A stretch of DNA of 36,536 bases from a virus. Position 1 is the first letter of the stretch; each line of letters opens with the position of its first letter. The notes beneath the pieces were generated by a model, which saw nothing but the letters and a program-made list of their open reading frames with translations, was not told the origin of the DNA and did no database searches. The stretch covers positions 1 through 36,536 of IMG/VR virus record IMGVR_UViG_3300025872_000149. One strand, 5' to 3'. Shown here one piece after another: positions 1 to 36,536 of this stretch. The translations under genes and the position numbers were made by a program.

Positions 1-478
1 CGGTAGCCTGTGACGGGTTCCAGGTAAACCAGAGTTCAGAGCCAGGCTTGCGGATTGTTGGGCGCAATAGATCAAGGCTTCGTTGTGAGAGGCTCTGTGC
101 TTCTTCGACCCAGGCGCAATCGTAGCCTTCCAGCGACTTGATCGAATCCGCGGTGTGGTTCTGCATGCCCTGGAAGATGATCGCCCCGTCGCCCTTCTTT
201 GACTTGATGCAAGCCTCTTGCACCTCGAAGTAAGCGCCCGCATTCATCTGCTCTATTTTCAGCTCTAACAGGCGCTTGACCGACTGAGCGAGCGACTTCT
301 GAACCTCACGAACGCACACGCTTCGACGTTTCTGATCAAGTAGGTGTGACTCAATCAGCATCTCTGCGAAGAAATGCGACTTGCCCGAGCCTCGTCCGCC
401 GTGTGCGCCTTTGTATCGAGCGGGATCAAGTAGCGGGACGGCCCAGGCTGGGGTCTGGAGTTGCAGAACCTTACCCAT
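1..478 (-). CDS. terL: Terminase large subunit, partial (C-terminus beyond window start)
   Basis: N-terminal 159 residues of a phage DNA-packaging ATPase. The Walker A motif GGRGSGKS lies near residue 27 and the Walker B-like stretch CAWVEEAQ near residue 120; the nuclease domain is missing because the contig begins here. The start is ATG at 478, overlapping the small terminase stop by 8 bases, the same arrangement as in the complete copy at 33814-35040. The protein is nearly the same as that copy but the DNA differs at roughly a fifth of positions, so this is a diverged homologue and not an assembly duplicate. It probably belongs to a second, related phage population. Confidence 0.9.
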   Translation of the reverse strand, partial: MGKVLQLQTPAWAVPLLDPARYKGAHGGRGSGKSHFFAEMLIESHLLDQKRRSVCVREVQKSLAQSVKRLLELKIEQMNAGAYFEVQEACIKSKKGDGAIIFQGMQNHTADSIKSLEGYDCAWVEEAQSLSQRSLDLLRPTIRKPGSELWFTWNPSQAT

Positions 479-884
479 TCTTGACGATAACCCGCTCAAT
501 CTTTGTGAACTCAAGGGGCGCACCATCGGCGCCGGTCAGCTCATGCTTTTGGGTTTCTGCCCAGCGCATCTGAGTCTTGCTCCACCAGATCATCGCTGCC
601 GTGTCGCCGCCCATTGCCTTTTGAAACAGCGTGCGACCGACGCCAGAGTTGGCCTTGGCCTTGCCAGCCACCAGCTCGGTGGCAAAGTGAGCGCGTAAAG
701 TATCCACATGAATGCCGTCTCGCACCAGGACTGCAATCTGCTCGATTGGCAAGCCATAGCCTGACATTGCCTCGACCTGTTTGCGCTCTGCGTCGGTCGG
801 CTTGAATGCTGGTCGGCCAGCACCTTCCCGAGCTCCGCCATTGCCGCCAATCTTTTTATAAGTGGGTTTTTCAGTTTTAGCCAT
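471..884 (-). CDS. terS: Terminase small subunit-like DNA-binding protein (branch copy)
   Basis: 137-residue basic protein placed immediately before the large terminase, where small terminases sit. It has a Gly/Lys-rich N-terminus, then a predicted helix-turn-helix-like segment (SGYGLPIEQIAVLV and following), a helical oligomerisation region, and a conserved end (GADGAPLEF...IERVIVK). The role inferred is recognition of the packaging site and loading of the large subunit. The start at 884 is preceded by GGAGG with good spacing and overlaps the upstream methyltransferase stop by 8 bases. The homologue at 35037-35471 shares the core but has a different N-terminal tail. The assignment rests on context plus a putative HTH. 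Confidence 0.75.
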   Translation of the reverse strand: MAKTEKPTYKKIGGNGGAREGAGRPAFKPTDAERKQVEAMSGYGLPIEQIAVLVRDGIHVDTLRAHFATELVAGKAKANSGVGRTLFQKAMGGDTAAMIWWSKTQMRWAETQKHELTGADGAPLEFTKIERVIVKNG

Positions 885-2109
885 CTTTAACCTCCGCGAA
901 AGGTTTTCCAGTTTCTGCGTGAATTGCTATTTTGCCCGTGAAGTCCTGCCAGCGCTTAATGATGACGTCGCAATACTTTGGATCAAGCTCCATGATGCGA
1001 GCAACGCGACCATTCTTCTCTGCTGCGATCAGCGTGGTTCCGGATCCGCCAAATGAATCCAAAACAATATCACCACCCTTTGTGTTGTTGAGCATCTGGT
1101 ACTCAAACAGGGCCACCGGCTTCATGGTTGGGTGCTCACCGTTGCGGGTTGGCTTTTCAAACTCCAAGATGGTGGTCTGCTTCCGGTCGGTGGCCCAGAG
1201 GTGGCCAGCGCCTTCCTTCCAGCCGTACAAGCAGGGTTCGTGCTTCCAGTGGTAATCCTGGCGGCCCATGACCATCGAGGACTTCTTCCAGATCAAACAC
1301 TGCCGCACAGTCCAGCCAGCGTCTTTGGCAGCGCCTCGGAAGTTGTAGCCTTCCAGGTCCGCGTGCCAGATGTAGAAGACCGCGCCAGGCTTCATGACTG
1401 TGTCGGCTGAAACGTAAGCATCTCGCAAGAACTGCCTAAACTTGTCATCCTCCATTGCGTCGTTTTGAATCTTCAGGGCATCTTTAGTTTTACCCTCGTA
1501 AGCAACGTTGTAAGGTGGATCGGTCAGCCACATGTCAACCAGTTGGCCATCGGTGAGCTTTTCCAGATCGCTGACACTGGTTGAGTCGCCGCACAGCAGG
1601 CGGTGCTTTCCCATGATCCAAACGTCACCGGGAACTGTGATTGAGTTTTCCTGAACTGCAGGCGCATCGTCTGGGTCCGTCAGGCCAGGCTCAATCTCCA
1701 CCGGCATCAGCGCCGCGATCTCCTCATCGGTAAACCCCACCAAGTCCAAATCAAACCCAAGATCACCCAGCTCTCCCAGCTCGAGAGCAAGCAGCTCGTT
1801 GTCCCAGCCTGCGTTCAGCGCCAGCTTGTTGTCTGCGATGACGTAGGCCCGCTTTTGTGCATCTGTCCAGCCTGTAGCAACGATCACTGGAACTTCTTTC
1901 AGCCCCAGCTTGCGAGCTGCTGCTAGTCTTCCGTGACCTGCGATGACCGAATGTTGATCGTCGATAAGAATGGGTGTAGTGAATCCCCACTCCTGAATGC
2001 TTGCTGCGATCTGAGCGACCTGAGCATCTGAGTGCGTGCGAGAGTTTTTCGCGTACGGAATGAGCTTGTCTATCGACAATGTTTGATGGTTGTCTGCCGG
2101 GTTCATCAT
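877..2109 (-). CDS. ParB-like domain fused to DNA methyltransferase (allele B)
   Basis: 410-residue fusion. Residues about 10-100 form a ParB/Srx-like domain with the IAGHGR box at 56-61. Residues about 160-405 form a beta-class amino-methyltransferase: the catalytic DPPY is at 197-200 and precedes the SAM-binding FGGSGTT at 353-359. It probably methylates adenine N6 or cytosine N4 in phage DNA, which could protect it from restriction or mark packaging sites. A sigma70-like promoter lies just upstream on the minus strand and the stop overlaps TerS. Only residues about 58-100 are identical at DNA level to the right-hand copy. The C-terminal methyltransferase part differs strongly, especially between DPPY and FGGSGTT, so target specificity may differ. 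In the circular genome the 5' part (1811-2109) also serves allele A. Confidence 0.88.
   Translation of the reverse strand: MMNPADNHQTLSIDKLIPYAKNSRTHSDAQVAQIAASIQEWGFTTPILIDDQHSVIAGHGRLAAARKLGLKEVPVIVATGWTDAQKRAYVIADNKLALNAGWDNELLALELGELGDLGFDLDLVGFTDEEIAALMPVEIEPGLTDPDDAPAVQENSITVPGDVWIMGKHRLLCGDSTSVSDLEKLTDGQLVDMWLTDPPYNVAYEGKTKDALKIQNDAMEDDKFRQFLRDAYVSADTVMKPGAVFYIWHADLEGYNFRGAAKDAGWTVRQCLIWKKSSMVMGRQDYHWKHEPCLYGWKEGAGHLWATDRKQTTILEFEKPTRNGEHPTMKPVALFEYQMLNNTKGGDIVLDSFGGSGTTLIAAEKNGRVARIMELDPKYCDVIIKRWQDFTGKIAIHAETGKPFAEVKDG
1811..1937. repeat. 127-bp direct repeat, internal copy (assembly junction)
   Basis: Identical base for base to 36410-36536, with mismatches immediately before it (bases at 1807 and 1810 differ from the corresponding ones at 36406 and 36409). 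It lies inside the ParB domain of the methyltransferase gene. A length of exactly 127 that stops at the contig end is what an assembler working at k=127 leaves at an unresolved branch. Confidence 0.95.
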
Positions 2110-2134
2110 CTGCCTCTGTAGTGGCGCAATCTTG

Positions 2135-2161
2135 ATTGTATCAACGATCTGTGCTAGTCAA
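2135..2161 (-). promoter_or_regulatory. Candidate promoter for ParB-MTase and late operon
   Basis: On the minus strand, TTGACT (2161-2156) and TACAAT (2140-2135) are separated by 15 bases, a short but usable spacing. It sits 26 bases before the first gene of the leftward block. If the genome is circular this would be the first promoter of the packaging, virion and lysis genes. No hairpin like those at the rightward promoters follows it. The spacing makes this less certain than the rightward promoters. Confidence 0.5.
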
Positions 2162-2191
2162 TAATTCTCACACTCTGCTGTGAAAAAAGTG

Positions 2192-2221
2192 TTGACACAG
2201 ACGCTAGACATACGCTACATT
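2192..2221 (+). promoter_or_regulatory. Rightward promoter P1
   Basis: TTGACA at 2192-2197 and TACATT at 2216-2221 with an 18-base spacer. The same two hexamers with the same spacer recur at 5620-5649. A stem-loop starts 8 bases after the -10 hexamer, close to the expected transcription start. Confidence 0.7.
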
Positions 2222-2228
2222 TACATCA

Positions 2229-2258
2229 CTGCGCGACACGAATGGACGGAAGGCGCAG
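2229..2258 (+). ncRNA. 5'-terminal leader hairpin, copy 1
   Basis: Stem CTGCGC (2229-2234) pairs perfectly with GCGCAG (2253-2258) around an 18-base loop, GACACGAATGGACGGAAG. It begins where transcription from P1 should start and is followed after 16 bases by the ATG at 2275. Copies 2 (5657-5685) and 3 (5928-5957) have different stem sequences that remain complementary, and related loops. This is an untranslated cis element, not a separate gene. Confidence 0.65.
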
Positions 2259-2274
2259 CAACCAAAGGAACATC

Positions 2275-2430
2275 ATGATCAAGTACACATTTCAGAAAGC
2301 ATCTTTCAACGGCCTCAAAGGCTGGATCGCCACGCGTTGGATCGACGGGGTTCACTCGGGCAAAGCATTCGGCAAGACAAAGAAAGAAGCAGTTGCACAG
2401 TTTGATGAAGCTCTCTGGGAAAACTCATGA
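2275..2430 (+). CDS. Small hypothetical protein
   Basis: 51 residues, not recognised. The sequence alternates aromatic and basic residues (YTFQK, GLKGWIATRW, AFGKTKKEAVAQF), resembling a small antiparallel-beta plus helix fold of the kind common in phage early genes. The ATG at 2275 is preferred over an in-frame ATG at 2242 because AAAGGAA lies just before it and because the upstream bases form the leader hairpin. It is the first gene after promoter P1, and its stop overlaps the next start as ATGA. Confidence 0.7.
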   Translation: MIKYTFQKASFNGLKGWIATRWIDGVHSGKAFGKTKKEAVAQFDEALWENS

Positions 2431-2519
2431 AACGCACCCACCGCCAGATCCTCGCCGATGTAGCCTTTGCAATCGTCCTCGGAGCCACCTTCGGCGTGGT
2501 CTTCGGGATCTACTTCTAA
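2427..2519 (+). CDS. 30-residue membrane peptide
   Basis: A 30-codon gene coupled to the previous one by an ATGA overlap and ended right before a terminator hairpin. After a basic start (MKRTHRQ) almost all of the rest is hydrophobic with Gly (AFAIVLGATFGVVFGIYF), a single predicted membrane helix with the basic end inside. Function is unknown; small inhibitory or membrane-signalling phage peptides look like this. Support comes from translational coupling and the fit between promoter and terminator. Confidence 0.55.
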   Translation: MKRTHRQILADVAFAIVLGATFGVVFGIYF

Positions 2520-2544
2520 AAACGGCTTAAGAGCCGTTTTTTTT
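2518..2544 (+). terminator. Rho-independent terminator
   Basis: Stem AACGGCT (2521-2527), loop TAAG, stem AGCCGTT (2532-2538), followed by a run of T to 2544 and preceded by A residues. It begins at the stop codon of the 30-residue gene and would end or attenuate the P1 transcript before the next two genes. Confidence 0.85.
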
Positions 2545-2613
2545 GGTCGATACATGTCTAGGTAGCAGACACCACAAAAAAACGCTCCTAGGCGCTTCTA
2601 ATCGATTCCTATC

Positions 2614-2745
2614 ATGAAACAGACTCGAGTTGCCCACCTGTTGTCCCTCTTGAATGATGGCTGTGGTTTCAAGGCTGCTGTACTCTTGACAGCACTGTAT
2701 TTCAAAGTTCCTGAGCATCAAATCATCCAGGAGTTCTACAGATGA
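2614..2745 (+). CDS. Small hypothetical protein coupled to zinc-ribbon gene
   Basis: 43 residues, not recognised: a helical, mildly hydrophobic protein (VAHLLSLL, FKAAVLLTALYF, HQIIQEFYR) that could be a short helix-turn-helix or dimer unit. The ribosome site is weak. Its stop overlaps the start of the zinc-ribbon gene as ATGA, which argues for real translation and coupling. A small CCTAGG-centred palindrome lies just upstream. It is placed after the terminator at 2518-2544, so it is expressed by readthrough or from a promoter not clearly seen. Confidence 0.5.
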   Translation: MKQTRVAHLLSLLNDGCGFKAAVLLTALYFKVPEHQIIQEFYR

Positions 2746-3050
2746 TCTGTCCGAAGTGTGAAGCCCCAGCAAGGGTCCTAGAGACCCGCTGGAGCCAGAA
2801 AAAAGCCTGCACCCGTCGCAGACTTGGTTGTCCATCTTGCGGTTATAGATTCTCAATATTCGGGGATATTATGATTCCACAAATAGATAATCAATTAGAT
2901 TCAGAAGGAATGCCTAAATATACAGAGACCATTCAAGTCCTTGAGGACTTGGTCAGAAGCGCCGGTGGTTGCGCCACCATCGACCAAGTTGCTGTCGTCA
3001 AGGCATGGCGTTTAATTGACCGTTATAACGCCATTATTAACGGTAAATAA
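2742..3050 (+). CDS. Zinc-ribbon protein, NrdR/Ogr-like finger
   Basis: 102 residues. The N-terminal 40 residues form a zinc ribbon with CPKC at 3-6 and CPSC near 30-33, joined by a basic stretch (KKACTRRRLG) resembling the NrdR zinc finger and the Ogr/Delta phage activator type. The rest is helical, acidic in the middle, and ends in a helix (AVVKAWRLIDRYNAIIN). It is probably a small nucleic-acid-binding regulator; an Ogr-like role in late gene activation is possible but not shown. GGAG precedes the ATG, and a strong terminator follows 25 bases after the stop. Confidence 0.65.
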   Translation: MICPKCEAPARVLETRWSQKKACTRRRLGCPSCGYRFSIFGDIMIPQIDNQLDSEGMPKYTETIQVLEDLVRSAGGCATIDQVAVVKAWRLIDRYNAIINGK

Positions 3051-3074
3051 TAAGGTCCACCATCCTCCCCATCC

Positions 3075-3101
3075 AGCCCGCCGCGTGCGGGCTTTTCTTT
3101 T
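3075..3101 (+). terminator. Rho-independent terminator
   Basis: Stem AGCCCGC (3075-3081), loop CGCGT, stem GCGGGCT (3087-3093), then TTTTCTTTT. It ends the rightward 2275-3050 operon. Confidence 0.9.
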
Positions 3102-3240
3102 ATTTCCACCACATCCGTTAAGGCTGGCACTCGATCCGGGTCAATGTGGCCAGGAAGGCCATCCCACCAGCCCGCACCCACCTCACCACCACCAACCTCA
3201 ACCAATGTCTTTTTCATCATCACCTCATCAAATTTTCCAT

Positions 3241-3378
3241 GCAACGCAACAGCCCCACAAACATAGCGCAACAACGCAACTACCCTAAAGGGTAGTAGTT
3301 GCGTTGCGTTGCGCTAAAATGTTAGTCTTGTCACAAACGCAACTAAAAAAAAGTTGCGCAACAGTTGCGTTTTGTTGC
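3241..3378. repeat. GCAAC/GTTGC iteron-like cluster with central palindrome
   Basis: Within the 348-base gene-free gap between convergent genes (3051-3397), the pentamer GCAAC or its complement GTTGC occurs 12 times in 138 bases, mostly as CGCAAC, at 3241, 3246, 3268, 3276, 3298, 3303, 3308, 3339, 3353, 3358, 3364 and 3374. The centre is a perfect palindrome, CTACCCT-AA-AGGGTAG (3280-3295). It is flanked by inverted blocks running from AGCGCAAC (from 3265) to GTTGCGCT (to 3315). The cluster lies beside the primase-helicase gene. A replication origin, partition-type site or termination locus is possible; no convincing promoter or gene is seen in it. Confidence 0.7.
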
Positions 3379-3397
3379 GCTACTTTTTACCCCACTT

Positions 3398-5404
3398 TTA
3401 TGCCCTCAAAAGCATGGCAGATGCCTGAACGGTGTCCAAAACGATCCACCCATGCTCGTACGAGTCGATGACCTGGGAGATCAAAAGCTCCCCGATTGGC
3501 TTCCCCTTGGACGACGGTCGGACGTAGATCGAAGCTGATGCTTCGGTCAATTCAAGGGTATCCATCAGATATTGGATAAGCCCCGACCGGCTCAAATACG
3601 GCTGACCGGCTCGGGTTTCTTTTCCTGCCACTTCCCAAGCATTCTGAAATAATCTTATATGTTTGGTTAATTTATTAACCCCTTTATCGGATATTGGTTT
3701 ATTGACTATTTCAATAATGGCGCTGGTGACCTGTTCATCGTCCTCGTCGATCCATCCGTTGATCTCCACGGTGCGAAGCTGGGCGTATATGTCTGGTGCT
3801 ATTTCTGAGTCCTTAGCTTTGCGCTGGACGATCTGCATCGGAGCTTCGTCTTTTGCGGGAATGATGCTTACCTCAATGTCGAGGGCTCCTCTCCATGCTG
3901 ATGACCCCCGAGCGCGATGCTGGGCTTCTTCGCTGACCCCGGTGTGATGCACTAGCAGGACTGAGCAATTGAACTCGCGCATGAGCTGGCCGCAGGCGTC
4001 TAGCATCGTTTTAGCGTCCTGAGCGCTGTTTTCATCGCCGGATAGGAATCGGTGCAGGGTGTCAATGACGATTAGGTCGGGGGGCTCGGGAAGTTGTTTC
4101 AGGTGAGTTGAGGTAGACAGATAGCCTTCTGGGGTGTTCAGGTCGCACCCCGAGCGGCTGAGCCACATCTGTAAGCTGCTGGCTTGATGATGCTGTTTCC
4201 AGGCTGCTATCCGAGCCCTCAGACCGTGATGGCCTTCGCCTGCCAGATAAACTATTCTTGCGGGCTTGACTCGATTGCCTGCCCACTCTTGCATTCCGCT
4301 GGCTAGACGTAGGCACCAATCCAGGACTACGAACGTTTTACCGCCGCCGCTAGGACCATGGATCATGATAAGAGCGTCGGACTGCAACCAGCCTTTGATG
4401 AGCCATTTGATCGGCGCAGGCTTCTGGCAATAGTCATCGGCGGGGATAAGCCAAGACTCTTGAGGAGGGTTCAGAAGCAATGAGAGGTTATGCCCAGCCT
4501 GGTGGTAATCGTTGGCATCCCCCTCGACCGAGGGCATAACGTAGCTCACACCATACTTGGCACAAGCCTGCTCGGCATGGCGCTGACCGACTCCACTTTT
4601 ATCGTGATCTGCCACAATCACAATCTTCTGGTCTGGGTAGAGCTCAAGAAGCGAGCCGGTGACGGGGATCAGATTCGAGGCACTGTACGCAACGACACAG
4701 GGGCGACCGCTTACCTCATGGATTGTTGCGGCTGTGGCGAAGCCTTCGGCCAAGTAAAGCGTTCCGGGGCTATCGACTAGACCGATGAGCCAGAATTGGC
4801 CGCCCGTTTGTCCGCCGGAGTGGTAAAGCTTGCCGCCCTCGCTGTCTATGTATTGAAGGCTGGATAGCTCCCCGTCCTCGCTGAAAAGAGGCACCATGAG
4901 CCTACCGTCGCCGGTGATTTTGGCGCCGTGTGGCTGGATGCCTTTGCGTTTGAGGTACGGATGGTCCGGACTTGCCTGGACGCCCTCGCTCCAGATGGTC
5001 TCGACTGTGCTAGCGGCCACAGAACGATCGCGCTCTATCTCTGCATCGCGCAACTTTTTGGCCGCATTGACACGGGCCACGTGGGCCATTTCTTGGGCCG
5101 GTGTCCACCTTTTCTTCCCAATGTCGGCTTTGACTGTCTGGGTGAAGTTAGCTCGCCAGCATCCGAACGTGATGCTCGGAATGCCTTCTCCGTAAGCTAC
5201 GTACCAACCCGATCTATCAAGTGTCTTGCGGCTGTTTCCGCTTCTGAATCTGTGAATCCTCCCATCAATAATTATTTGGTCGGGAACGTCTAAACCCGAC
5301 TCGGCTACTGCGTTTTTGAACTGCACCTCGACTGGCAACGGTGCAGGGCCCACATCTACCGGGGGAGACCAAGGCCCCCCCAGCACGCGGGTGAGATCGG
5401 CCAT
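3398..5404 (-). CDS. TOPRIM primase - RecA-like helicase
   Basis: 668-residue replication protein. Residues about 210-300 are a TOPRIM domain with the conserved Glu in LYLAEGF (E220) and the VADHD pair (D266/D268). Residues about 330-560 are a RepA/DnaB-type ATPase with Walker A HGPSGGGKT (349-357), Walker B LIVIDTLHRF and a sensor-like LLVHHTG. The N-terminal 120 residues resemble the DUF927/primase-associated region of phage and plasmid primases. It likely primes and unwinds phage DNA. It starts directly after the HTH gene stop in the same leftward operon. No phage DNA polymerase is present, so host polymerase III is presumably recruited. The GCAAC repeat cluster lies just past its stop. 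Confidence 0.88.
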   Translation of the reverse strand: MADLTRVLGGPWSPPVDVGPAPLPVEVQFKNAVAESGLDVPDQIIIDGRIHRFRSGNSRKTLDRSGWYVAYGEGIPSITFGCWRANFTQTVKADIGKKRWTPAQEMAHVARVNAAKKLRDAEIERDRSVAASTVETIWSEGVQASPDHPYLKRKGIQPHGAKITGDGRLMVPLFSEDGELSSLQYIDSEGGKLYHSGGQTGGQFWLIGLVDSPGTLYLAEGFATAATIHEVSGRPCVVAYSASNLIPVTGSLLELYPDQKIVIVADHDKSGVGQRHAEQACAKYGVSYVMPSVEGDANDYHQAGHNLSLLLNPPQESWLIPADDYCQKPAPIKWLIKGWLQSDALIMIHGPSGGGKTFVVLDWCLRLASGMQEWAGNRVKPARIVYLAGEGHHGLRARIAAWKQHHQASSLQMWLSRSGCDLNTPEGYLSTSTHLKQLPEPPDLIVIDTLHRFLSGDENSAQDAKTMLDACGQLMREFNCSVLLVHHTGVSEEAQHRARGSSAWRGALDIEVSIIPAKDEAPMQIVQRKAKDSEIAPDIYAQLRTVEINGWIDEDDEQVTSAIIEIVNKPISDKGVNKLTKHIRLFQNAWEVAGKETRAGQPYLSRSGLIQYLMDTLELTEASASIYVRPSSKGKPIGELLISQVIDSYEHGWIVLDTVQASAMLLRA

Positions 5405-5593
5405 TTATATTGGATTGATCATTGTCTGTTTTGTGATGTAGTCGGACAAAATCGTCAGAGTGCGTGACGACGGGTTAAGGATCTCACCTTTTTTGATCCT
5501 GTGCAGCGTATTTGCATGTAGGCCGGTTGCTGCTGCCACCGTTGAGATGCGCCGGTCTGCCAAGGCAGCCCGGACCTGATCAAGATTCAACAT
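5405..5593 (-). CDS. Small HTH (Cro/CI-like) regulator
   Basis: 62 residues from the ATG at 5593, preferred over an upstream ATG at 5626 because AAAGGGG lies just before it. The central part (RISTVAAATGLHANTLHRIKKG) is a clear Cro/XRE-type helix-turn-helix, followed by a short helix (RTLTILSDYI). It probably binds the symmetric operator at 5617-5657 between its own promoter and the rightward early promoter and so acts as a genetic switch or autoregulator. It is smaller than lambda Cro-family repressors with cleavable domains, and no integrase is present, so it need not mean a temperate life style. Confidence 0.8.
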   Translation of the reverse strand: MLNLDQVRAALADRRISTVAAATGLHANTLHRIKKGEILNPSSRTLTILSDYITKQTMINPI

Positions 5594-5619
5594 CTTTTTC
5601 CCCTTTCGTTGTTGTGGTA

Positions 5620-5649
5620 TTGACATTGTGTAGTGAGTCGGGCTACATT
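5620..5649 (+). promoter_or_regulatory. Rightward early promoter P2
   Basis: TTGACA (5620-5625), 18-base spacer, TACATT (5644-5649): the same hexamers and spacer as P1. It drives the 5703 gene, with hairpin copy 2 starting 8 bases past the -10. Confidence 0.75.
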
Positions 5650-5654
5650 GTCAA
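5625..5654 (-). promoter_or_regulatory. Leftward promoter for HTH and primase-helicase
   Basis: On the minus strand TTGACA (5654-5649), 18-base spacer, CACAAT (5630-5625). It faces and overlaps P2, so firing in the two directions should exclude each other. The -10 match is weaker than that of P2. Confidence 0.55.
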
Positions 5655-5656
5655 TA

Positions 5657-5685
5657 CTGCACGAACGGACTAGCCGAAAGTGCAG
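5657..5685 (+). ncRNA. 5'-terminal leader hairpin, copy 2
   Basis: Stem CTGCAC (5657-5662) with GTGCAG (5680-5685), loop GAACGGACTAGCCGAAA with an inner CGG/CCG pairing. It starts 8 bases after the P2 -10 hexamer and ends 17 bases before the ATG. ACAACGAAAGGG follows it and serves as the ribosome site; a near copy of that string precedes the leftward HTH gene. Confidence 0.7.
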
Positions 5686-5702
5686 ACAACGAAAGGGAAA
5701 CC

Positions 5703-5888
5703 ATGCAACTCCTGACAGAAGACAACTATTACGAAGTTTGGGCTTCTAACGTGAATGATTACATTGTTCTGTGGTCGTCAGACTATCCAACAAAAGCAAA
5801 TTTGATTTGTACGTGCGACGATATGGATGAGGCAGTGGAAATGGCTAAGCTCTATATCCACTGTAAAAACAACGAGATTGAGTTTTGA
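5703..5888 (+). CDS. Hypothetical acidic early protein
   Basis: 61 residues, not recognised. It is rich in Asp, Glu and aromatics (EDNYYEVWASNVNDYIVLW), with two Cys in ICTCDD and one near the end. It is the first gene of the P2 transcript, with a good ribosome site (GAAAGGG). A separate promoter and hairpin leader (P3) follow at once, so it forms its own short unit. Small acidic first-expressed phage proteins often bind host regulators; that is only a guess here. Confidence 0.65.
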   Translation: MQLLTEDNYYEVWASNVNDYIVLWSSDYPTKANLICTCDDMDEAVEMAKLYIHCKNNEIEF

Positions 5889-5891
5889 CTA

Positions 5892-5920
5892 TTGACGGGG
5901 CAACAGTGCCCTGTTAAATT
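5892..5920 (+). promoter_or_regulatory. Rightward early promoter P3
   Basis: TTGACG (5892-5897), 17-base spacer, TAAATT (5915-5920). Hairpin copy 3 starts at 5928, giving the same 8-base offset from the -10 as in P1 and P2. It probably drives the long rightward operon up to 14521. Confidence 0.65.
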
Positions 5921-5927
5921 GAACACA

Positions 5928-5957
5928 TCGAACGAACGGAATAGGCCGACGGTTCGA
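5928..5957 (+). ncRNA. 5'-terminal leader hairpin, copy 3
   Basis: Stem TCGAAC (5928-5933) with GTTCGA (5952-5957), loop GAACGGAATAGGCCGACG with an inner CGG/CCG pairing. It is followed after 17 bases by the ATG at 5975. The loop is nearly the same as in copy 2 while the stem sequence is different, which is compensatory change supporting an RNA structure. Confidence 0.7.
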
Positions 5958-5974
5958 CGAACAAAGAGAACGAG

Positions 5975-6253
5975 ATGAAAAACAATGATCTGATGCTGAC
6001 CCAAGCCGATCAACTGGGCCAACTGTTGGCTGAGATTGATGTGCTTACCAAGCAAGCCGACGCTATCAAAGCTTTGATGCGTGAAGCTGGCGGAGTGCAT
6101 GATGGCGTGTTGTTCCGTTCCACGGTTGTGGAGTCGAATCGGTCGGTCACCGACTGGAAGGCTCTCTGTGCTGCCCAAGGCATTGGGGCTGATGTGATTG
6201 CCGCCCACACCAAGACCACAGCGGTCTACTCGGTCAAGACCACCTCAAAATAA
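5975..6253 (+). CDS. Hypothetical helical protein
   Basis: 92 residues, not recognised. Residues 8-40 form a likely coiled coil (QADQLGQLLAEIDVLTKQ and on); the C-terminal half resembles small proteins found beside phage recombination genes (VLFRSTVVESNRSVTDWKAL). It is the first gene of the P3 transcript and sits upstream of the Sak4-like ATPase, so an accessory role in recombination or replication is possible. A weak AAAGAGAA precedes the ATG. Function unknown. Confidence 0.7.
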   Translation: MKNNDLMLTQADQLGQLLAEIDVLTKQADAIKALMREAGGVHDGVLFRSTVVESNRSVTDWKALCAAQGIGADVIAAHTKTTAVYSVKTTSK

Positions 6254-6258
6254 AGGAG

Positions 6259-6273
6259 GGGGGCCTAGCCCCC
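6259..6273 (+). promoter_or_regulatory. GC-rich hairpin at ribosome site
   Basis: GGGGGC and GCCCCC pair around a 3-base loop (CTA). The strong Shine-Dalgarno AGGAGG (6254-6259) abuts the 5' side and the ATG at 6279 lies 5 bases after the 3' side. Folding would bring a too-distant ribosome site (19 bases) to a workable distance, or could mask it. No T run follows, so it is not a good terminator. Confidence 0.5.
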
Positions 6274-6278
6274 ATCAC

Positions 6279-6398
6279 ATGGAAACCCCTCCACCGAACT
6301 GGCCGTTCCCGACGTACAAAGGGAACCCGCTTCCAAAACCACCTCCCTCACCGTTCCGTCAGGAACCCCTACCACCTGCGCCACCGGCGCCTTTTTAA
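6279..6398 (+). CDS. Proline-rich 39-residue peptide
   Basis: 39 codons ending 9 bases before the ATPase gene. About 17 of 39 residues are proline (METPPPNWPF, PLPKPPPSPF, PPAPPAPF), with three similar segments each ending in PF. Such low complexity can arise from base composition, but the strong Shine-Dalgarno upstream and exact fit between two genes favour translation. It would be an extended, unfolded peptide; a binding partner is unknown. Confidence 0.5.
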   Translation: METPPPNWPFPTYKGNPLPKPPPSPFRQEPLPPAPPAPF

Positions 6399-6407
6399 TG
6401 AAACAAC

Positions 6408-7079
6408 ATGGCTATAAATCTCAAAACCACCAAATCACTCGCGGCATCTGGCGTAAAACTTCTGGTCTACGGTCAAGCCGGGGCCGGTAAGACGACCCTG
6501 ATACCAAGCTTGCCGACGCCTGTAGTGTTGTCGGCTGAGGGCGGTCTGCTGTCGATTGCAGACGCTGACGTGCCTTTTATTGAGATAGGCACGATGGCTG
6601 CTTTGTGGGAGGCTTGGGAGTGGCTAACGAAGTCTGCGGAAGCTACCCACTTTGAAAGCGTTGCGCTAGATAGTATTAGTGAAATTGCGGAGGTCGTGTT
6701 GTCCGCTGAGAAGAAATCTAGCAAAGATCCTCGACAGGCTTACGGTGCGATGCAAGAGCAAATGGCTGACATCATCCGGGCATTCCGTGATGTGCCAGGC
6801 AAGCACGTTTACATGTCTGCAAAGCTAGAAAAGAACCAAGACGAAATGGGCCGGATACTCTACTCCCCATCAATGCCGGGCAATAAAACCGGACAAAGCC
6901 TACCCTACTTTTTCGATGAAGTGCTGGCGCTAAGAGTTGAGAAGAATGCTGAAGGCGAGACACAACGGGCACTGATGTGTGACTCTGATGGACTATGGGT
7001 TGCTAAAGATAGATCCGGAAAGCTTGAGATGTGGGAAGCCCCCGACTTAGGGGCGATCATCCGAAAAATTGAGAGTTAA
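6408..7079 (+). CDS. Sak4-like RecA-fold ATPase (recombination)
   Basis: 223 residues with Walker A GQAGAGKT (22-29), a Walker B-like SVALDSISEIAEV and no other domain, as in the AAA_24/Sak4 family of phage single-strand annealing-associated ATPases (usual length about 220-300). It would load on single-stranded DNA with a phage SSB and support recombination or replication restart. The neighbours agree: a DUF669-like protein and a RecB/Cas4-like nuclease lie just downstream. Start ATG at 6408, with ribosome site not strong. Confidence 0.82.
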   Translation: MAINLKTTKSLAASGVKLLVYGQAGAGKTTLIPSLPTPVVLSAEGGLLSIADADVPFIEIGTMAALWEAWEWLTKSAEATHFESVALDSISEIAEVVLSAEKKSSKDPRQAYGAMQEQMADIIRAFRDVPGKHVYMSAKLEKNQDEMGRILYSPSMPGNKTGQSLPYFFDEVLALRVEKNAEGETQRALMCDSDGLWVAKDRSGKLEMWEAPDLGAIIRKIES

Positions 7080-7081
7080 CT

Positions 7082-7303: not shown

Positions 7304-7313
7304 AAGGATAACT

Positions 7314-7700: not shown

Positions 7701-7703
7701 ACC

Positions 7704-28784: not shown

Positions 28785-28785
28785 G

Positions 28786-29410: not shown

Positions 29411-29430
29411 TTTGAACTCCTATGCAGAAA

Positions 29431-29448: not shown

Positions 29449-29461
29449 AGTCTTTCCAGGT

Positions 29462-30748
29462 TTACTGGTTGAACAACAAGATGCCGGACATCTCGGGGTT
29501 CTTGTTCACAACTCCGAACAGCGTGTCCATGCGGTACTTGATGGTCATGCTATCAATGTCGTAGAACTTCTGCATCACCAGCTCAATACCTTGGTCGGTG
29601 GTGGCTCGCATCACTGCGACGCCAGCATCGGAAGGCACGGCATAACGACCAGGCAGGATTTCCAGAGCATCACGCTGCCAGAACACGTTCACCTGTGCGG
29701 TGTTCACGTTAAGGAAGGTGATGGCAGCAGTGTTCGAAGCGGTGGAGACTTCCACGTTCTTGTATTGCTTCTGGGCATCGGTCGGGGCCACGCCTTGTGC
29801 GCCGATGATCGGGGGGGTGATCACCAGGGTGGTGCCGCCCGCAGGCACGCTCACGACGCGGAAGGTCTTAAGTTGTCCGGTGGACTGCTTGGTAATGTGA
29901 TGCACAGCGAACACACCATCAATGGTGAATGCATCGCCAGCAGCAACACCAACCGAGGAACTAACGGTCACGGTCTGGAAGCGGTTGTCCACGTTGATCT
30001 GGCCACCGACCGAGGTCGAGGTGGCCTGGGGCGTGTAGTTGGCCTGAGTGCCTGCGCCATCGGTATCGATGGTGATAGCACCGCCACCACCAGCAGCGAG
30101 CTGACGGTTTGCGTAGTCCATCTTGTAGGTCTCGAAGCCAGCGACCATGCCGACGTAAGAGCGCTCATAAGCCTTGTCAGACTTCTGATTGCCGAACGAA
30201 CGGGCAGAGCCGACCAGGTTGCCAGCCAGACCGTTGTAGTCGCGGCTGGACAGGGCCATGAAGCGGTCGTAGTCGGGCACGCCTTGCTCGTTCATGATTG
30301 CGTCGCACAGGGCAACGTCGTCATAGTCACCTGCAGCAGCGGCAATCGGCACCACCAGCGAGCCAAGGCTTGCGGCCGAGTTCATGATGGCGATATTGAT
30401 GTCGCTGGCCAGCTTTTGTTTTGCAGAGTCGCCCAAGCGGCCTTCTTGCAAGGCATCGCGCAATTCGAGGGAGGTCATTTCCCATGGCACGGTCTTGCTG
30501 AAACCCAAAGTCGCAGGCACGGCCAGCTGCGTCATGCCCTGGTAGCCGGAGATCGGCGTGCCGGGGGTGCTGCTGATCGACTGAGCGATATAGGGCTGAG
30601 GACGCCAGATCGTGTTATTGGCACGTTCCATCATCGTCTGATCGGTCTGGTAGATCGAGACGTTACGGGACAGCACAAGTGCGTCCTGGAAACCTTCGAG
30701 CAAGTCTTCAAATGCGACGCGCTCTTCTTTGGAAAAACTATTTGCCAT
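29462..30748 (-). CDS. Major capsid protein, P22 coat family
   Basis: 428 residues (P22 coat: 430). The sequence follows the P22 coat pattern: N-terminal helix, ALVLSRNVSIYQTD, GDTIWRP-like WRPQPY, SGYQGM, then VPATLGFSKTVPWEMTSLELRDA, an inserted beta domain, and a C-terminal FGVVNKNPEMSGILLFNQ end. HK97-type fold with I-domain expected. It forms the shell together with the scaffold coded upstream. Codon use is more GC-ending than elsewhere, as for highly expressed genes, which creates a long false antisense frame. Confidence 0.92.
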   Translation of the reverse strand: MANSFSKEERVAFEDLLEGFQDALVLSRNVSIYQTDQTMMERANNTIWRPQPYIAQSISSTPGTPISGYQGMTQLAVPATLGFSKTVPWEMTSLELRDALQEGRLGDSAKQKLASDINIAIMNSAASLGSLVVPIAAAAGDYDDVALCDAIMNEQGVPDYDRFMALSSRDYNGLAGNLVGSARSFGNQKSDKAYERSYVGMVAGFETYKMDYANRQLAAGGGGAITIDTDGAGTQANYTPQATSTSVGGQINVDNRFQTVTVSSSVGVAAGDAFTIDGVFAVHHITKQSTGQLKTFRVVSVPAGGTTLVITPPIIGAQGVAPTDAQKQYKNVEVSTASNTAAITFLNVNTAQVNVFWQRDALEILPGRYAVPSDAGVAVMRATTDQGIELVMQKFYDIDSMTIKYRMDTLFGVVNKNPEMSGILLFNQ

Positions 30749-30768
30749 GATTGGCTCCTATAGAAAAA

Positions 30769-31674
30769 TCAGTTTCTGCTGGATGCCGCACGTTTCTGCG
30801 CCTTGTACTGAATGACCTTGGTCATGTTGCCAGTACGCGCCGCTTCTTCGCGCAGCCGTTCAAGTGTTGAGTCAACCGCCCCAGATGTTCTACCGGTACC
30901 TTGAATAACACGTTCTGGTGCGGGCGCTGCCTTACGATTAGTGACTTTCAATTCCTTCTCCAGTCTCGCAACCGCAAAGGCAAACTTCACGGGGTCTGTA
31001 ACTTTTGAGAGTTCCGCCGCTTTCTTGGGATTTTTACCGAGTGCATATACGACTAACGCAGGGTTTTCAGCCCCTTGCAGAATCACGCCTTGCTGAGTGA
31101 CGCTAAAGACTTCCTGAGCGATAGCCTCGGCGTCTTCATAGTCTCGGACCTTCAGCTCGGCTTTAGCCTTGCTGTAGCCTTCTAGTTTGGCTTGCCATGC
31201 TTGCTGCTGTGCTTGCTCAGCCTGACGGGCCTTCTCGGCCTCAATATCGTGCTGTCGCTTGCGTTCATGCCATGCGTCTAATGCTTGCTCGAACTTCTCA
31301 GCGTCGTAATCGTGATCCTCTAGCTTTGGCTTAGCTCCCAGTTGCACTGGCTTGGTCTCAGGTGCAGCGGTAGCAAGTTTGGCCTCAAGTTCTCGAATAC
31401 GTCGCTCTTTCTCCCTGTTTGCTTTGCGTAGCTCTCGCACCCATTCGGGTGCTTTCGGTTCCTCGGCGGGTGGCGCTTCCTCGCCAATAGAGACAACAAC
31501 TTCGTCGGATTCTTCCTCTTGCTTATTTTCCAAGTTCGCGGATTGTTGGTCGTCGGTGGAATCATCCTCACCAACTTCGATCTCAACATTCTGCTGCCCG
31601 TCATCAAGCATTGCGGATTCGTCTTCGATCTCGTTATCTCCTGCTTCTGCCTTTTGATTCATTATTGACCCCAT
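30769..31674 (-). CDS. Scaffolding protein
   Basis: 301 residues (P22 scaffold: 303) between portal and coat, as in P22. It is acidic in the first 80 residues, then has long charged helices (EWVRELRKANREKERRIREL and EAEKARQAEQAQQQAW), ending in a basic tail (IQYKAQKRAASSRN) suited to binding coat. It would guide procapsid assembly and then leave. The ATG at 31674 has GGTGAG upstream; GTG 31683 or ATG 31662 are alternatives. Confidence 0.82.
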   Translation of the reverse strand: MGSIMNQKAEAGDNEIEDESAMLDDGQQNVEIEVGEDDSTDDQQSANLENKQEEESDEVVVSIGEEAPPAEEPKAPEWVRELRKANREKERRIRELEAKLATAAPETKPVQLGAKPKLEDHDYDAEKFEQALDAWHERKRQHDIEAEKARQAEQAQQQAWQAKLEGYSKAKAELKVRDYEDAEAIAQEVFSVTQQGVILQGAENPALVVYALGKNPKKAAELSKVTDPVKFAFAVARLEKELKVTNRKAAPAPERVIQGTGRTSGAVDSTLERLREEAARTGNMTKVIQYKAQKRAASSRN

Positions 31675-31735
31675 CAAACTCACCCAATTTGAACGGCTGG
31701 GCGGGTGCCGTTTATTACATTCTAACTAATGATAA

Positions 31736-33790
31736 TCATCTGACAATGGGTTGCACTTCTTGACCCATAACAGCCTGCTGAGTTGCCTCCATAGCTGTCA
31801 GTGCCATGTTCTGCTCCTGCACCCCGGTCTTGGCGAGTGTTTCGGCGGTTCGTGCGCGAGACAATTCAGCATCTGCAACGGTTTTGACGGTATCTGCGCG
31901 GGCCTTGGCTGCCTTGGCAATGGCTTCCTCCGCTGCGGCCTGCAAGAAGATCTCGTTCGGGTCTTGTTTCTGGCCTTGCATCTCGACCATCATCTGTTCT
32001 TGCTCTTGCTCGGTTGGTTTGACAACGCCCATACGCACCAGTTTCTTTCTAGCGTGCGCGCTCAGTTCGGACAAGCCTTCGCCTTCAATGTTCATCATAG
32101 CGGTGGCGATCAAGACTTGAGCAGTCTCTGGGTCTGTTGTCATTTGCAAGAGACCAGTGATAGCGCGAACAGTAGCCGCACGCTTGCTTGAACTTGATGG
32201 CCCAACATCAACGTTCACGTCAAACTTGGCATTGCTGAGATCGTTCTCCATGACGATTTCGCCAGTTTCGCTGACCATTGGCCGCATAAGCTCAATCATT
32301 TGAACTTGCTCATCAGAGCCGATTGACTTCATTTTGCGGCCTTCATCAACGTACACATCACGCGCCATTGATAGCCAAATCTCGCCGCACCGCTTCATTC
32401 CCTTAGCGAAGTTCGACATGTAGATGAAGGTCTGCATGTCGATTCGGGTCTGAATCATCTCAACGGCCTTGCCGGAAATGTTGCTGACCATCTTGTCAGC
32501 CTGCTGCGAGCTGCCGAGGATATCCTGCATATCCTGTTCGGTTACCTGAAGCAATGCGGCCATCGCGGGGGGGATCTGTGGGCTCTTTGTGTATGCGACA
32601 GGCCCCGAGACTTGCTGACTGCCATCTGGGCCAGTGATCGGATTCACCAGAAGATAAGGGTAGTTGCGGAGATTATCGTCCGCCCACATGACCTGATGGC
32701 CGGCCACTTGCTCAGGCAAGAGAATCGGCTTCTCAACACTGGACAATGCGCTGATCTCCCCGAGTTTGGAGAGCTGCATGTTCTTCAGGCGCTGCGCATC
32801 TTTGGCCAGGCGTACATGGCCCATGCAACGTTCCACGTTATCCACAAACCAGCGTTTACCGTAGACCGGGACGATTGGGATGCACTTGCCTGCAATGTAC
32901 CCAGCATCCTCGAGGATCCGGCCACCGCTCAGAATGTACTTATGAACACGTCTTGACTTGATTTTGCGCTGACGGACTTCCTGACTTCCGATAGCTGCAA
33001 GCGTGTCCTCTAGTGCCGGGTCGGCGTCGAAGTCAGACTTACGATACCTTTCTTCTGTGCCATCAATCGCCCTGAAGATCCGAATGGTTTCTGTAACGTC
33101 TTCGACTTTGTAGTACTCAGCCACGTAAACAACGTCAGGCGTACACCAGTCGAATTCGTACTGGTGGATGATCTTCGGCCAATCGGTAGGATCGTCGCCC
33201 CATTCTTCTTTGTAACTTGCGCGGGTCATCGAGGTGACCACGAAGCAATAGCGGGCGTCTGACTTGTCCTGACGCTTTGAATTTAGATCGAAGAAAACAG
33301 AACTATCAGCGTCGAAAATGGGTTCAATACGAATGCGCTGTTTTTCGTTGTCTTCGTCTTCTTCGTCTTCATAAACCGTCCGCAGGCGCCAGGCTCCAAA
33401 ACCACCCCCGACGGCTTCCTCAAAGGCATTGTCGTAGGCTTCGTCTGCAACGCTGTCTTGCTCATCAGCACGATAAAGCCCGTCGCATGTCTCGGCTAGT
33501 TTGTCGTCGCCATCTTCTTTGCTGACGAAATCGACAGTGATACGGTTGTTGCGATACTCGTTGATGATGCGAATCACTGAGAGGTGAATCTTGTTCACCT
33601 CAAAACGAGGTTTGTTCTCGTAGACATCAAGGAGTGGGCCCTCCCACTGACTGCCAGCCAAGCTGTAGAACCGACGATCTTGCAAGCATTGCAGGCGCTC
33701 ATCACGCAAAGCGGTCTGAATATCATTGAACTGGGCCAATGCATCAGAGTGGAGATTTGACAGATATTGCTCTTTTGAAACGCGTGCCAT
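31736..33790 (-). CDS. Portal protein, P22 gp1-like
   Basis: 684 residues from ATG 33790 (AAAGGGG upstream; a longer start to 33820 overlaps TerL). P22 portal is 725. Sequence features of the family: RDERLQCLQDRRFY, SQWEG, PRFEVNKIHL-IRIINEYRNNRITVDF near the N-terminus. The C-terminal 100 residues are helical and Gln/Ala-rich, as for the barrel region. It forms the 12-fold DNA entry ring and headful sensor. Followed by scaffold and coat. Confidence 0.9.
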   Translation of the reverse strand: MARVSKEQYLSNLHSDALAQFNDIQTALRDERLQCLQDRRFYSLAGSQWEGPLLDVYENKPRFEVNKIHLSVIRIINEYRNNRITVDFVSKEDGDDKLAETCDGLYRADEQDSVADEAYDNAFEEAVGGGFGAWRLRTVYEDEEDEDNEKQRIRIEPIFDADSSVFFDLNSKRQDKSDARYCFVVTSMTRASYKEEWGDDPTDWPKIIHQYEFDWCTPDVVYVAEYYKVEDVTETIRIFRAIDGTEERYRKSDFDADPALEDTLAAIGSQEVRQRKIKSRRVHKYILSGGRILEDAGYIAGKCIPIVPVYGKRWFVDNVERCMGHVRLAKDAQRLKNMQLSKLGEISALSSVEKPILLPEQVAGHQVMWADDNLRNYPYLLVNPITGPDGSQQVSGPVAYTKSPQIPPAMAALLQVTEQDMQDILGSSQQADKMVSNISGKAVEMIQTRIDMQTFIYMSNFAKGMKRCGEIWLSMARDVYVDEGRKMKSIGSDEQVQMIELMRPMVSETGEIVMENDLSNAKFDVNVDVGPSSSSKRAATVRAITGLLQMTTDPETAQVLIATAMMNIEGEGLSELSAHARKKLVRMGVVKPTEQEQEQMMVEMQGQKQDPNEIFLQAAAEEAIAKAAKARADTVKTVADAELSRARTAETLAKTGVQEQNMALTAMEATQQAVMGQEVQPIVR

Positions 33791-33813
33791 AAGTCGCCCC
33801 TTTTGGCAATAGT

Positions 33814-35040
33814 CTACCACTTGTTCACAACCGGCAACGGCTTAAAGTTGGTCGTCTTATTGACAGCCGAGGCACGTCTAACGCCTTCACACGCATATCT
33901 CAACGCATCAATGACGTGGTTCTGATTGTCTTGCAGAATCGGCAGAACTTTGCCAGTCAGCGGGTCTGTCTTGTAACTGTAAAACGTCAACTCATCAATT
34001 GTGTGAGTGCAGCGTGGATGCACAACGATGTCATAAGACTTCATCCACTCGACGCCTTCAGCCACCGAGTCTTTGCCCTTGACAGCCGGCATGATCTTTG
34101 GGAACCCGTTCTTGCGCATGTGGCTGATCGTCTCCGGCCTGGATGAGTCAGCCACCATAGGCCACTTCTCAGCCTCTGGCACAGTCATGAATAAGTCAGG
34201 CGTGTCCATGATCTCGCAGCCGATCATATACGCCTCATGATCAATGTAGAGCGTGCGACCGACGATGTGGCAACGAACCAAGACGGTCGGGTCAGACGCA
34301 AAGCCCCAGTCGGCACCGAGCCGATGGATAGCGTCCTTTGGTGCCTCGAACTCCTCAACTCGCCAATTGCGGAACACCCGCGAGGTGCTGTTCGTTAGAT
34401 ATCCGCCGCGCCAGACGTGAGCATATTTGTCCGGGTCGCGTGCTTTGTCGTACTCCATTTCCTCGCGGAGCACGTTCGGGAACCAGGGGTTATCTGTGAA
34501 GTTGACCTCGAGCACCACCGCACCAGGTGGCGGCTTGTCGCCACGCAACAGCATGTCAACCGGGTCGGTTGATTGGCTGGGGTTCCAAGTGAACCATAGC
34601 TCCGAGCCTGGCTTGCGAATCGTTGGCCGAAGAAGATCTAGGCTGCGCTGGCTCAGGCTCTGAGCTTCCTCGACCCACGCGCAATCGTAGCCCTCAAGCG
34701 ACTTAATCGAGTCAGCAGTGTGATTCTGCATCCCCTGGAAGATGATCATCCCATCGCCGCGCTTTGACTTGATGACAGCTTCCTGAACCTCAAAGTAAGC
34801 GCCCGCATTCATCTGCTCGATCTTCAGTTCTAGCAGGCGCTTGACAGACTGCGCCAGAGACTTCTGCACTTCCCGCACGCACACGCTACGCCGCTTCTGA
34901 TCTATGAGGTGCGCCTCAATCAGCATCTCAGCGAAGAAATGAGACTTACCAGACCCCCGGCCACCATGAGCGCCTTTGTAGCGTGCTGGCTCAAGCAATG
35001 GTAGAGCCCATTGTGGGGTTTGGATCTGTAGAACCGTCAT
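33814..35040 (-). CDS. terL: Terminase large subunit
   Basis: 408 residues, full length. ATPase motifs GGRGSGKS and CAWVEEAQ in the first 125 residues; nuclease motifs RLGADWGFASDPT (first Asp), MVADSS, and NHVIDALRYA (last Asp) follow. Packages DNA into the procapsid and cuts it. The stop lies past the portal start region. Strongly similar in protein to the partial copy at 1-478. Confidence 0.95.
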   Translation of the reverse strand: MTVLQIQTPQWALPLLEPARYKGAHGGRGSGKSHFFAEMLIEAHLIDQKRRSVCVREVQKSLAQSVKRLLELKIEQMNAGAYFEVQEAVIKSKRGDGMIIFQGMQNHTADSIKSLEGYDCAWVEEAQSLSQRSLDLLRPTIRKPGSELWFTWNPSQSTDPVDMLLRGDKPPPGAVVLEVNFTDNPWFPNVLREEMEYDKARDPDKYAHVWRGGYLTNSTSRVFRNWRVEEFEAPKDAIHRLGADWGFASDPTVLVRCHIVGRTLYIDHEAYMIGCEIMDTPDLFMTVPEAEKWPMVADSSRPETISHMRKNGFPKIMPAVKGKDSVAEGVEWMKSYDIVVHPRCTHTIDELTFYSYKTDPLTGKVLPILQDNQNHVIDALRYACEGVRRASAVNKTTNFKPLPVVNKW

Positions 35041-35471
35041 TTGACGATGACGCGCTCAATGCGGCGGAATTCAATCGGAGCCCCGTCTGCGCCGGTGATC
35101 TCGTGCTGCTGCACTTCCTTCCAGCGCATCTGGGTCTTGGACCACCAGATAGCCGCCGTGGTGTCGCCTGCCATGACCTTCTGAAATAGGGTTTTCCCTA
35201 CCTGCCCGTTTGCCTTGGCCTTGCCCGAGATCAGTTCCTGGGCAAAGTGCTTGCGCAGGGTGTCGGTGTCGATGCCGTCGCGCACCAGGACTGCGATCTG
35301 CTCGATGGGCAGGCCGTAGCCGGACAGGGCTTCGACCTGTTTTCGCTCGGGATCGGTGGGCACAAAAGCCGGTCGGCCAGCGCCTGGCATGGCACCTCCA
35401 GTGCCCGGCCTAGCACCGCCGCGCTTTTTTGGAACCGATTTTTCTTCAACCTTGGGTTTCTTCGTTGCCAT
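35037..35471 (-). CDS. terS: Terminase small subunit-like DNA-binding protein
   Basis: 144 residues from ATG 35471 (GGAGG upstream; a longer frame to 35555 runs into the methyltransferase end). Lys-rich, Gly/Pro-rich N-terminus of about 45 residues, then the same core as the 471-884 copy (SGYGLPIEQIAVLVRDGI, IWWSKTQMRW, GADGAPIEF). It likely recognises pac. The ATG of TerL overlaps its stop. Confidence 0.78.
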   Translation of the reverse strand: MATKKPKVEEKSVPKKRGGARPGTGGAMPGAGRPAFVPTDPERKQVEALSGYGLPIEQIAVLVRDGIDTDTLRKHFAQELISGKAKANGQVGKTLFQKVMAGDTTAAIWWSKTQMRWKEVQQHEITGADGAPIEFRRIERVIVK

Positions 35472-36536
35472 TTTTAACCTCCGCGAAAGGTTTTCCAGTT
35501 TCTGCGTGTGTTGCCTGCTTGCCGGTGAACTCCTGCCAGCGCTTGACGATGACATCGCAATACTTGGGGTCCAGCTCCATCAGGCGGGCGTGGCGGCTTG
35601 TCTTTTCGCAGGCGATCAGGGTGCTGCCACTGCCGCCGAATAGGTCCAGAACAATCTGGCCATTTTTGCTGCTGTTGTTGATGGCGCGCTCTGGAAGCTC
35701 GACCGGCTTCTGAGTGGGGTGGTAATCGTTGCGGGCTTCTTTTTTCAGCTCCCAAACGGTCTTTTCGTCGGTCGGGCCAAACCACTGCGGGCTGCTGCCT
35801 GCCTTGAACGCATAGATGCAGGGTTCGCAGTTGCGGATGTATTGGGACATGAATGCCCCAAGTCCAGATCGAACTTTATACCACTGGATGATGGCGCGAA
35901 GTTTCAGCGGAAGATCTGAAAACGCTGCGAATGTTTCCACGCTTTTACCCGACGCATACCAGACATAAAACGCGGCATGGTCATGGGTCACAGTCACAGC
36001 GACTGACAGCGCACCATAAAACAGGCCGGTTAGGTTTTCGCCCTCCAAAGCATCGTTCTTGATCTGCTGACGCTTCTTAGCGTTGTGCCCACCTTCATAG
36101 GCCACGCCATATGGTGGGTCGGTGAACACCATGTCGGCCTTGTTCCCATCCATCAATTGCTCAACCGCGCTGATGCTTGTGCTATCCCCACACATCAGCC
36201 GGTGCTTGCCCATGACCCAGACGTCACCAGGCACAGTGACCGGGTTTTCCTGCACGGCCGGGGCATCGTCCGGATCGGTCAGACCTTCGGTCACTTCCAC
36301 CGGCATCAGAGCTTTGATCTCTTCGTCTGAGAAGCCTGTCAGTTCAACGTCAAAGCCCAGACCATCAAGTTCGGCCAACTCCAGCGCCAGCAACTCGTTG
36401 TCCCATCCAGCGTTCAGCGCCAGCTTGTTGTCTGCGATGACGTAGGCCCGCTTTTGTGCATCTGTCCAGCCTGTAGCAACGATCACTGGAACTTCTTTCA
36501 GCCCCAGCTTGCGAGCTGCTGCTAGTCTTCCGTGAC
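35446..36536 (-). CDS. ParB-DNA methyltransferase fusion (allele A), 5' end at 1938-2109 after circle closure
   Basis: Visible part: 363 codons running off the right edge. On joining 36536 to 1938 the frame continues to the ATG at 2109, giving 420 residues (299 + 964 bases = 421 codons). The MTase has DPPY and FGGSGST, beta-class order as in allele B, but the segment between them differs greatly from allele B (for example HHDHAAFYVWYASGKS-like versus FYIWHADLEGYNF regions), implying another DNA target. The C-terminus is 6 residues longer (NGNEETQG). It overlaps TerS by 26 bases. Role: methylation of phage DNA. Confidence 0.88.
   Translation of the reverse strand, partial: HGRLAAARKLGLKEVPVIVATGWTDAQKRAYVIADNKLALNAGWDNELLALELAELDGLGFDVELTGFSDEEIKALMPVEVTEGLTDPDDAPAVQENPVTVPGDVWVMGKHRLMCGDSTSISAVEQLMDGNKADMVFTDPPYGVAYEGGHNAKKRQQIKNDALEGENLTGLFYGALSVAVTVTHDHAAFYVWYASGKSVETFAAFSDLPLKLRAIIQWYKVRSGLGAFMSQYIRNCEPCIYAFKAGSSPQWFGPTDEKTVWELKKEARNDYHPTQKPVELPERAINNSSKNGQIVLDLFGGSGSTLIACEKTSRHARLMELDPKYCDVIVKRWQEFTGKQATHAETGKPFAEVKNGNEETQG
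36410..36536. repeat. 127-bp direct repeat, terminal copy
   Basis: Same bases as 1811-1937 and reaching exactly the last base of the window. Marks where the contig loops back into its own start region. Confidence 0.95.

Follow-up and report, generated by a model that had tools for sequence, protein, structure and literature searches.

RESULTS

Gene content of the window

The record IMGVR_UViG_3300025872_000149 is a single viral contig, classed as linear. We analyzed its full 36,536 bases, and refer to this whole stretch as the window. Profile searches identify a P22-type portal (PF16510, 1e-162), a P22-type coat protein (PF11651, 1.1e-85) and a scaffold protein (phrog_648), and the genes run in the order TerS–TerL–portal–scaffold–coat. 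Judged by its predicted head and packaging genes, the record encodes a P22-like phage. It also encodes head closure, a lysozyme-type endolysin, primase, a Sak4-like protein, an SSB-like protein, a Cas4-type exonuclease, a C5-MTase and a RadD-like helicase, and no tRNA gene was found in the window. The features are collected in Table 1, in which A and B denote two related phages and S a tract that is common to both. Related contigs are given L numbers.

Table 1. Coordinates of the features of the window, with their assignment to phage A, phage B or the common tract S
Feature	Position	Strand	Evidence
Branch A: cassette of a second phage (MTase C-terminal part, TerS, N-terminal TerL)	1–1810		74% DNA identity to the window's own cassette; extends left in L084 and L099
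k-mer overlap with the right end of sister contig L099 (3300025872_000523)	1–127		L099 16549–16675 equals window 1–127 and ends there
TerL of phage A, N-terminal 175 aa, cut by contig start	2–526	-	PF04466, 8.4e-26; 94% aa to TerL B over 156 aa
TerS of phage A	471–884	-	phrog_309, 6.1e-12; 75% aa to TerS B
ParB-MTase, phage A version, 410 aa; aa 1 to ~100 in the shared tract	877–2109	-	PF02195, aa 10–79; PF01555, aa 191–384
Junction 127-mer, left copy, first k-mer common to phages A and B	1811–1937		Exact repeat; also in L087, L088 and L100, each with A flank
Tract S, without difference between phages A and B, 17,256 bp: ParB domain, primase, recombination genes, C5-MTase, RadD-like helicase, endolysin, tailspike	1811–19066		L100 equals window 1140–19066; S joined to B genes in L101 and L200
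Tailspike gene, 702 aa, entirely within S	16931–19039	-	phrog_1171 tail spike, 4.1e-58; Peptidase_S74
Phage B specific half: ejection/structural genes, head completion, coat, scaffold, portal, TerL, TerS, MTase C-terminal part	19067–36409		PF16510 portal, PF11651 coat; L101 equals window 17832–36444
TerL of phage B, 408 aa	33814–35040	-	PF04466, PF17288, TIGR01547
TerS of phage B	35037–35555	-	phrog_309, 2.6e-14
MTase of phage B, N-terminus cut by contig end; 420 codons if continued from 36536 to 1938	35446–36534	-	PF01555, 3.6e-25; joined frame
Junction 127-mer, right copy, contig end	36410–36536		Exact repeat

An exact repeat of 127 bases at the contig end

A repeat search of the window shows that bases 1811–1937 and 36410–36536 are identical over exactly 127 bases, the right copy terminating at the last base of the record. 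The identity has zero extension to the left, and the 50 bases preceding the two copies are 74% identical. The only other exact repeats of at least 20 bases are 228–253/34793–34818 (26 bases) and 886–921/35473–35508 (36 bases), and both pair the left-end cassette with that at the right end. The excerpts of PMC10604447 give the metaSPAdes values k = 33, 55, 77, 99 and 127 for a JGI project, so that 127 is the largest k of those settings. According to the excerpts of PMC10914622 (COBRA), breaks in metaSPAdes and MEGAHIT assemblies lead to contig-end sequences of length maxK. Those of PMC9302107, PMC11237453 and PMC11460016 do not give the k set. The repeat is exact, anchored at the contig end and equal in length to a k-mer size used in a JGI assembly, and thus is not due to chance. 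The sequence-only reading had taken the end of the window to be a k = 127 graph junction, and this is borne out by the exact repeat, by its differing flanks and by a sister contig, L099, that itself ends in the first 127 bases of the window. Among the other loci (numbered to L179, many partial and some overlapping) end repeats of at least 20 bases were found in none except the rejoined 3300020048_000373, with 55 bases.

When position 36536 is continued into 1938 a single open ParB-MTase frame results, of 436 codons from stop to stop and 420 from the start MMNPADNH. The joined translation confirms the restored 420-codon protein that had been proposed, and the length of the proposed circular phage, 34,599 bp, is reproduced after the join. 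Closure of the phage B circle through the junction would follow from the 127-mer, the restored frame and the relatives described below. On the B side L101 stops 35 bases into the 127-mer, and an IMG/VR pattern search found no contig other than the window that carries the B cassette past the junction into S.

The left end continues in other contigs

The cassettes at the two ends of the window are 74% identical in DNA over 15–1148, and the A and B MTases are 61% identical in amino acid sequence. A search of IMG/VR with the pattern of window 1–40 finds two contigs, L084 and L085 (of which L099 is the full contig). The match of L099 to the window is 127 bases long and halts at the contig end. L084 holds window 1–385 and then runs leftward through base 1 into a sister structural module that is 73% identical to the window's own. 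The two contigs overlap exactly over 4,001 bp. Encoded on L099 are proteins for ejection, head, coat, scaffold and portal as well as the C-terminal part of TerL, at 40–85% amino acid identity to those of the window. Since L099 ends in window 1–127 and L084 crosses base 1 into a diverged structural module, the data support the assignment of 1–1810 to a second P22-like phage, A. The end of L099 lies exactly k bases into the window, which suggests a common origin of the two in one assembly, 3300025872.

It had been suggested that the left end encodes second, diverged versions of MTase, TerS and TerL belonging on a related genome, and that a contig continuing TerL to the left of base 1 should be sought. 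Both L084 and L099 are such contigs, leading into the sister structural module, and the identities of 61, 75 and 94% for the three proteins agree with the suggestion. The same reading held the 1.8-kb branch to be foreign to the rest. It does belong to a second phage, but it is joined to the same body in L087, L088 and L100.

A tract of 17,256 bp common to both phages

A pattern inside the 127-mer is found in four contigs, L086, L087, L088 and L089 (full contig L100, 3300025732_000360). L086 is a more distant relative that lacks the full 127-mer; the other three contain the whole of it, preceded on the left by the A flank and followed by the body. L087 equals window 1726–11437, and L088 differs from window 143–8974 at 4 of 8,832 bases. 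L100 equals window 1140–19066, 17,927 bases with zero differences, and beyond 19067 drops abruptly to ~74% and has a 1,547-bp exact overlap with L099. On the other side L101 matches the window as given in Table 1, and L200 equals window 9002–23164 over the 14,163 bases compared. Thus L087, L088 and L100 join A to S, and the link from S to B is seen in L101 and L200. Five contigs contain the last 40 bases of S, of which three lead to B (L200, L201 and L101, also numbered L202) and two to A (L100, also L203, and L099, also L204). The assemblies are possibly re-assemblies of the same reads, and these counts of contigs and assemblies do not equate to independent samples. Because A-linked L100 and B-linked L101 and L200 all match the window where they overlap this tract, 1811–19066 is common to A and B. 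The part 1938–19066 would then be expected to have a coverage equal to that of the two phages added together.

The tract includes a cluster of genes for a Sak4-like protein, an SSB-like DUF669 protein and a Cas4-type exonuclease at 6408–9242, likely a recombination module. A C5-cytosine methylase ORF and a second long ORF of the same strand, in another frame, occupy the same stretch (10637–11428 and 10641–11417).

Divergence is abrupt at both edges of S. The tract is 100% identical over 17,256 bp, falling to 69–80% within 300 bp past its right edge and to 69–74% within 200 bp past its left edge. Taken per 100 bases, A and B are 47–86% identical over 1–1800 and 98–100% past 1800, while the window and L099 are 100% identical up to 19044 and 47–82% beyond. 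The left edge lies near MTase codon 100, between ParB_N (aa 10–79) and the methylase domain (aa 191–384). L086 is 92–100% alike to the window from 1701 to 1950, and the ParB part is therefore conserved enough for recombination to act there. On the right, the edge is 27 bases past the tailspike gene's first codon, within the last codons of a 920-aa gene at 19039–21801.

A contig from another assembly, L201 (3300017780_001945), is 100% identical to B over 19001–19900 but departs from it inside the tailspike gene; its identity to the window over 5975–9243 is 69.6%. The tailspike-start region is thus broken in other phages too. Set beside window 18744–20911, L201 retains the B sequence to the right of the tailspike start but has another tailspike, and its early region is at 70%, marking the start of the tailspike gene as a repeated exchange point.

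Two contig ends do not fit a plain fork between A and B. The left end of L099 (1–122) has 122 bases in common with the end of S (window 18945–19066), five short of k, and is therefore not a plain A/B fork; a further variant probably forks there. At the end of L100 (19344–19470) the A MTase turns into exactly 127 bases of the B MTase (window 35609–35735), suggesting either a third, recombinant MTase or another k = 127 fork in the assembly of L100.

Relatives carry the cassette once

MW202867.1 is a circular genome of 34,522 bp in which MTase, TerS, TerL, portal, scaffold and coat occur once each, in the same order. In a near-identity search of a phage collection with window 1–24000 it was the sole record found, over 10% of the query. 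The ends of 3300020048_000373 repeat exactly 55 bases; it has one MTase, and TerL is split across its ends. On its sequence this is a 35,076-bp circle closed at another k. A search of 15 records with TerL B gave a match in six, none of which has two whole copies, the other nine being uninformative on copy number. Searching the same records with the A MTase gave a match in 14; in two of these the match is in two pieces, each from a different part of the protein.

MTase and terminase reassort in other phages, as in L006 (3300036770_000363), where TerL is 89% identical to that of B and the MTase 82% to that of A. Relatives of TerL are also encoded in bacterial contigs, at 70% in L183 (Pandoraea eparura) and 84% over 114 aa in L198 (a Burkholderiales MAG). 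These two give a weak hint of a Burkholderiales host; other TerL relatives come from Desulfomicrobium and other groups.

DISCUSSION

The record is very probably an assembler path that fuses two related P22-like phages sharing an identical half genome. A de Bruijn graph with k = 127 would hold two co-occurring phages, both containing S. The left end of S would be entered from two sides, from the A cassette (1–1810) and from the B cassette (ending at 36409), with 1811–1937 as the first common 127-mer; the right end would exit either into the structural genes of B (19067 on) or into those of A (L099). The assembler may then have walked from the A cassette through S and the B half back to the 127-mer, and halted there, S having been used before. 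This walk would account for what is seen directly in the contigs, namely the exact 127-mers, the sister contig ends and an S that is identical in contigs linked to A and in contigs linked to B. Phage B would be a circular map of 34,599 bp, and phage A would consist of S, L099 and 1–1810, for which the summed contig overlaps give ~35,492 bp.

At face value the record adds a two-terminase phage to the public catalogue. A single phage might truly carry two diverged MTase–TerS–TerL cassettes, with the 127-base repeat as a true duplication edge, and the deposited record does read in this way with all its ORFs open. Yet the second TerL is truncated at base 1, and L084 and L099 extend it into an entirely different set of structural genes, the length of the repeat is exactly an assembler k, and the complete relatives MW202867.1 and 3300020048_000373 have one cassette each. 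We consider a true double cassette highly improbable, and reject it on the continuation and the single-copy relatives. Because the A TerL continues in L084 and L099 and each circular relative has one TerL, the doubled cassette is an artefact and not a real feature. Neither phage has two terminases, and the earlier warning against counting two in one phage was well founded. Could the repeat instead be the true terminal redundancy, or direct terminal repeat, of a linear virion genome? Terminal redundancy is a feature of P22-type headful phages. However, the left copy lies at 1811–1937 and not at the left end, preceded by 1,810 bases of another phage, and again the length is exactly k. The same sequence does not stand at both ends, and a direct terminal repeat, which we find barely conceivable here, is rejected.

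Two further arrangements retain the order of the record. The A cassette, S and the B structural half might be a real third phage, in which an A-type MTase–TerS–TerL start sits on a B body and is closed by recombination inside TerL, leaving the B cassette as a stray branch. In assembly 3300025585 L088 (143–8974) and L200 (9002–23164 and on) together follow this path, and the reassortment of MTase and TerL in 3300036770_000363 is in keeping with it. Against this, both contigs that contain window 1–40 (L084 and L085/L099) lead into the structural genes of A and none into those of B, and both L101 and the window run from the B structural genes directly into the B cassette; a third phage of this kind is improbable. 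A 70-kb cointegrate S–A–S–B with both halves on one molecule would be compatible with adjacency alone, S being longer than short reads. But it would be double the size of the circular relatives (34,522 and 35,076 bp) and would carry two sets of structural genes, and its likelihood is negligible.

With two phages sharing S, the real biology here is a recent half-genome exchange, clear but ordinary phage mosaicism. The A/B pair would have arisen by homologous recombination, with one end inside the ParB-coding part of the MTase gene and the other where the tailspike gene starts. The chances are about even that a P22-like pair of one habitat has just swapped a whole half of the genome as one block, setting 17.3 kb of identical DNA, with the genes for tailspike, lysis, replication and recombination, beside packaging and virion halves that differ between the two. 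With one edge between the ParB and methyltransferase domains of a single gene and the other within 28 bp of the start of the tailspike gene, host recognition would then move together with the early genes, and the target part of the methyltransferase with the terminase. The block's own Sak4-like, SSB and Cas4-like exonuclease genes may drive the exchange. The fork in the assembly also records a recent half-genome exchange, with edges that can be placed to the base. As an error in the catalogue it is of an already known kind, and it exposes a blind spot, since a closed circle that lies behind an end-to-interior k-mer repeat is classed as linear.

How does this compare with known systems? The situation resembles the maxK end overlaps described in the excerpts of PMC10914622 (COBRA) in having a 127-base overlap at the contig end, differing in-branches and a sister contig with the same 127 bases at its end. 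It differs in that the overlap runs from the end to the interior, so that end-repeat tests miss the closed circle. In COBRA, joins are decided by coverage and read pairs (same excerpts). Caudoviricetes sp. MW202867.1 (Manatee Spring) shares the order primase, MTase, TerS, TerL, portal, scaffold, coat ... tail, lysis, helicase, exonuclease, and the amino acid identities are 64–65% (coat), 70% (portal) and 81% (TerL). In contrast it has a single cassette and no match to the C5-MTase, and its tailspike is alike over the first 107 aa only. Mosaic P22-like phages are described in the excerpts of PMC8022706, where phage L is compared with P22. There as here blocks of near-identical DNA with sharp edges stand beside diverged blocks; the present pair differs in having a single 17.3-kb block without difference, in uncultivated phages that occur together.
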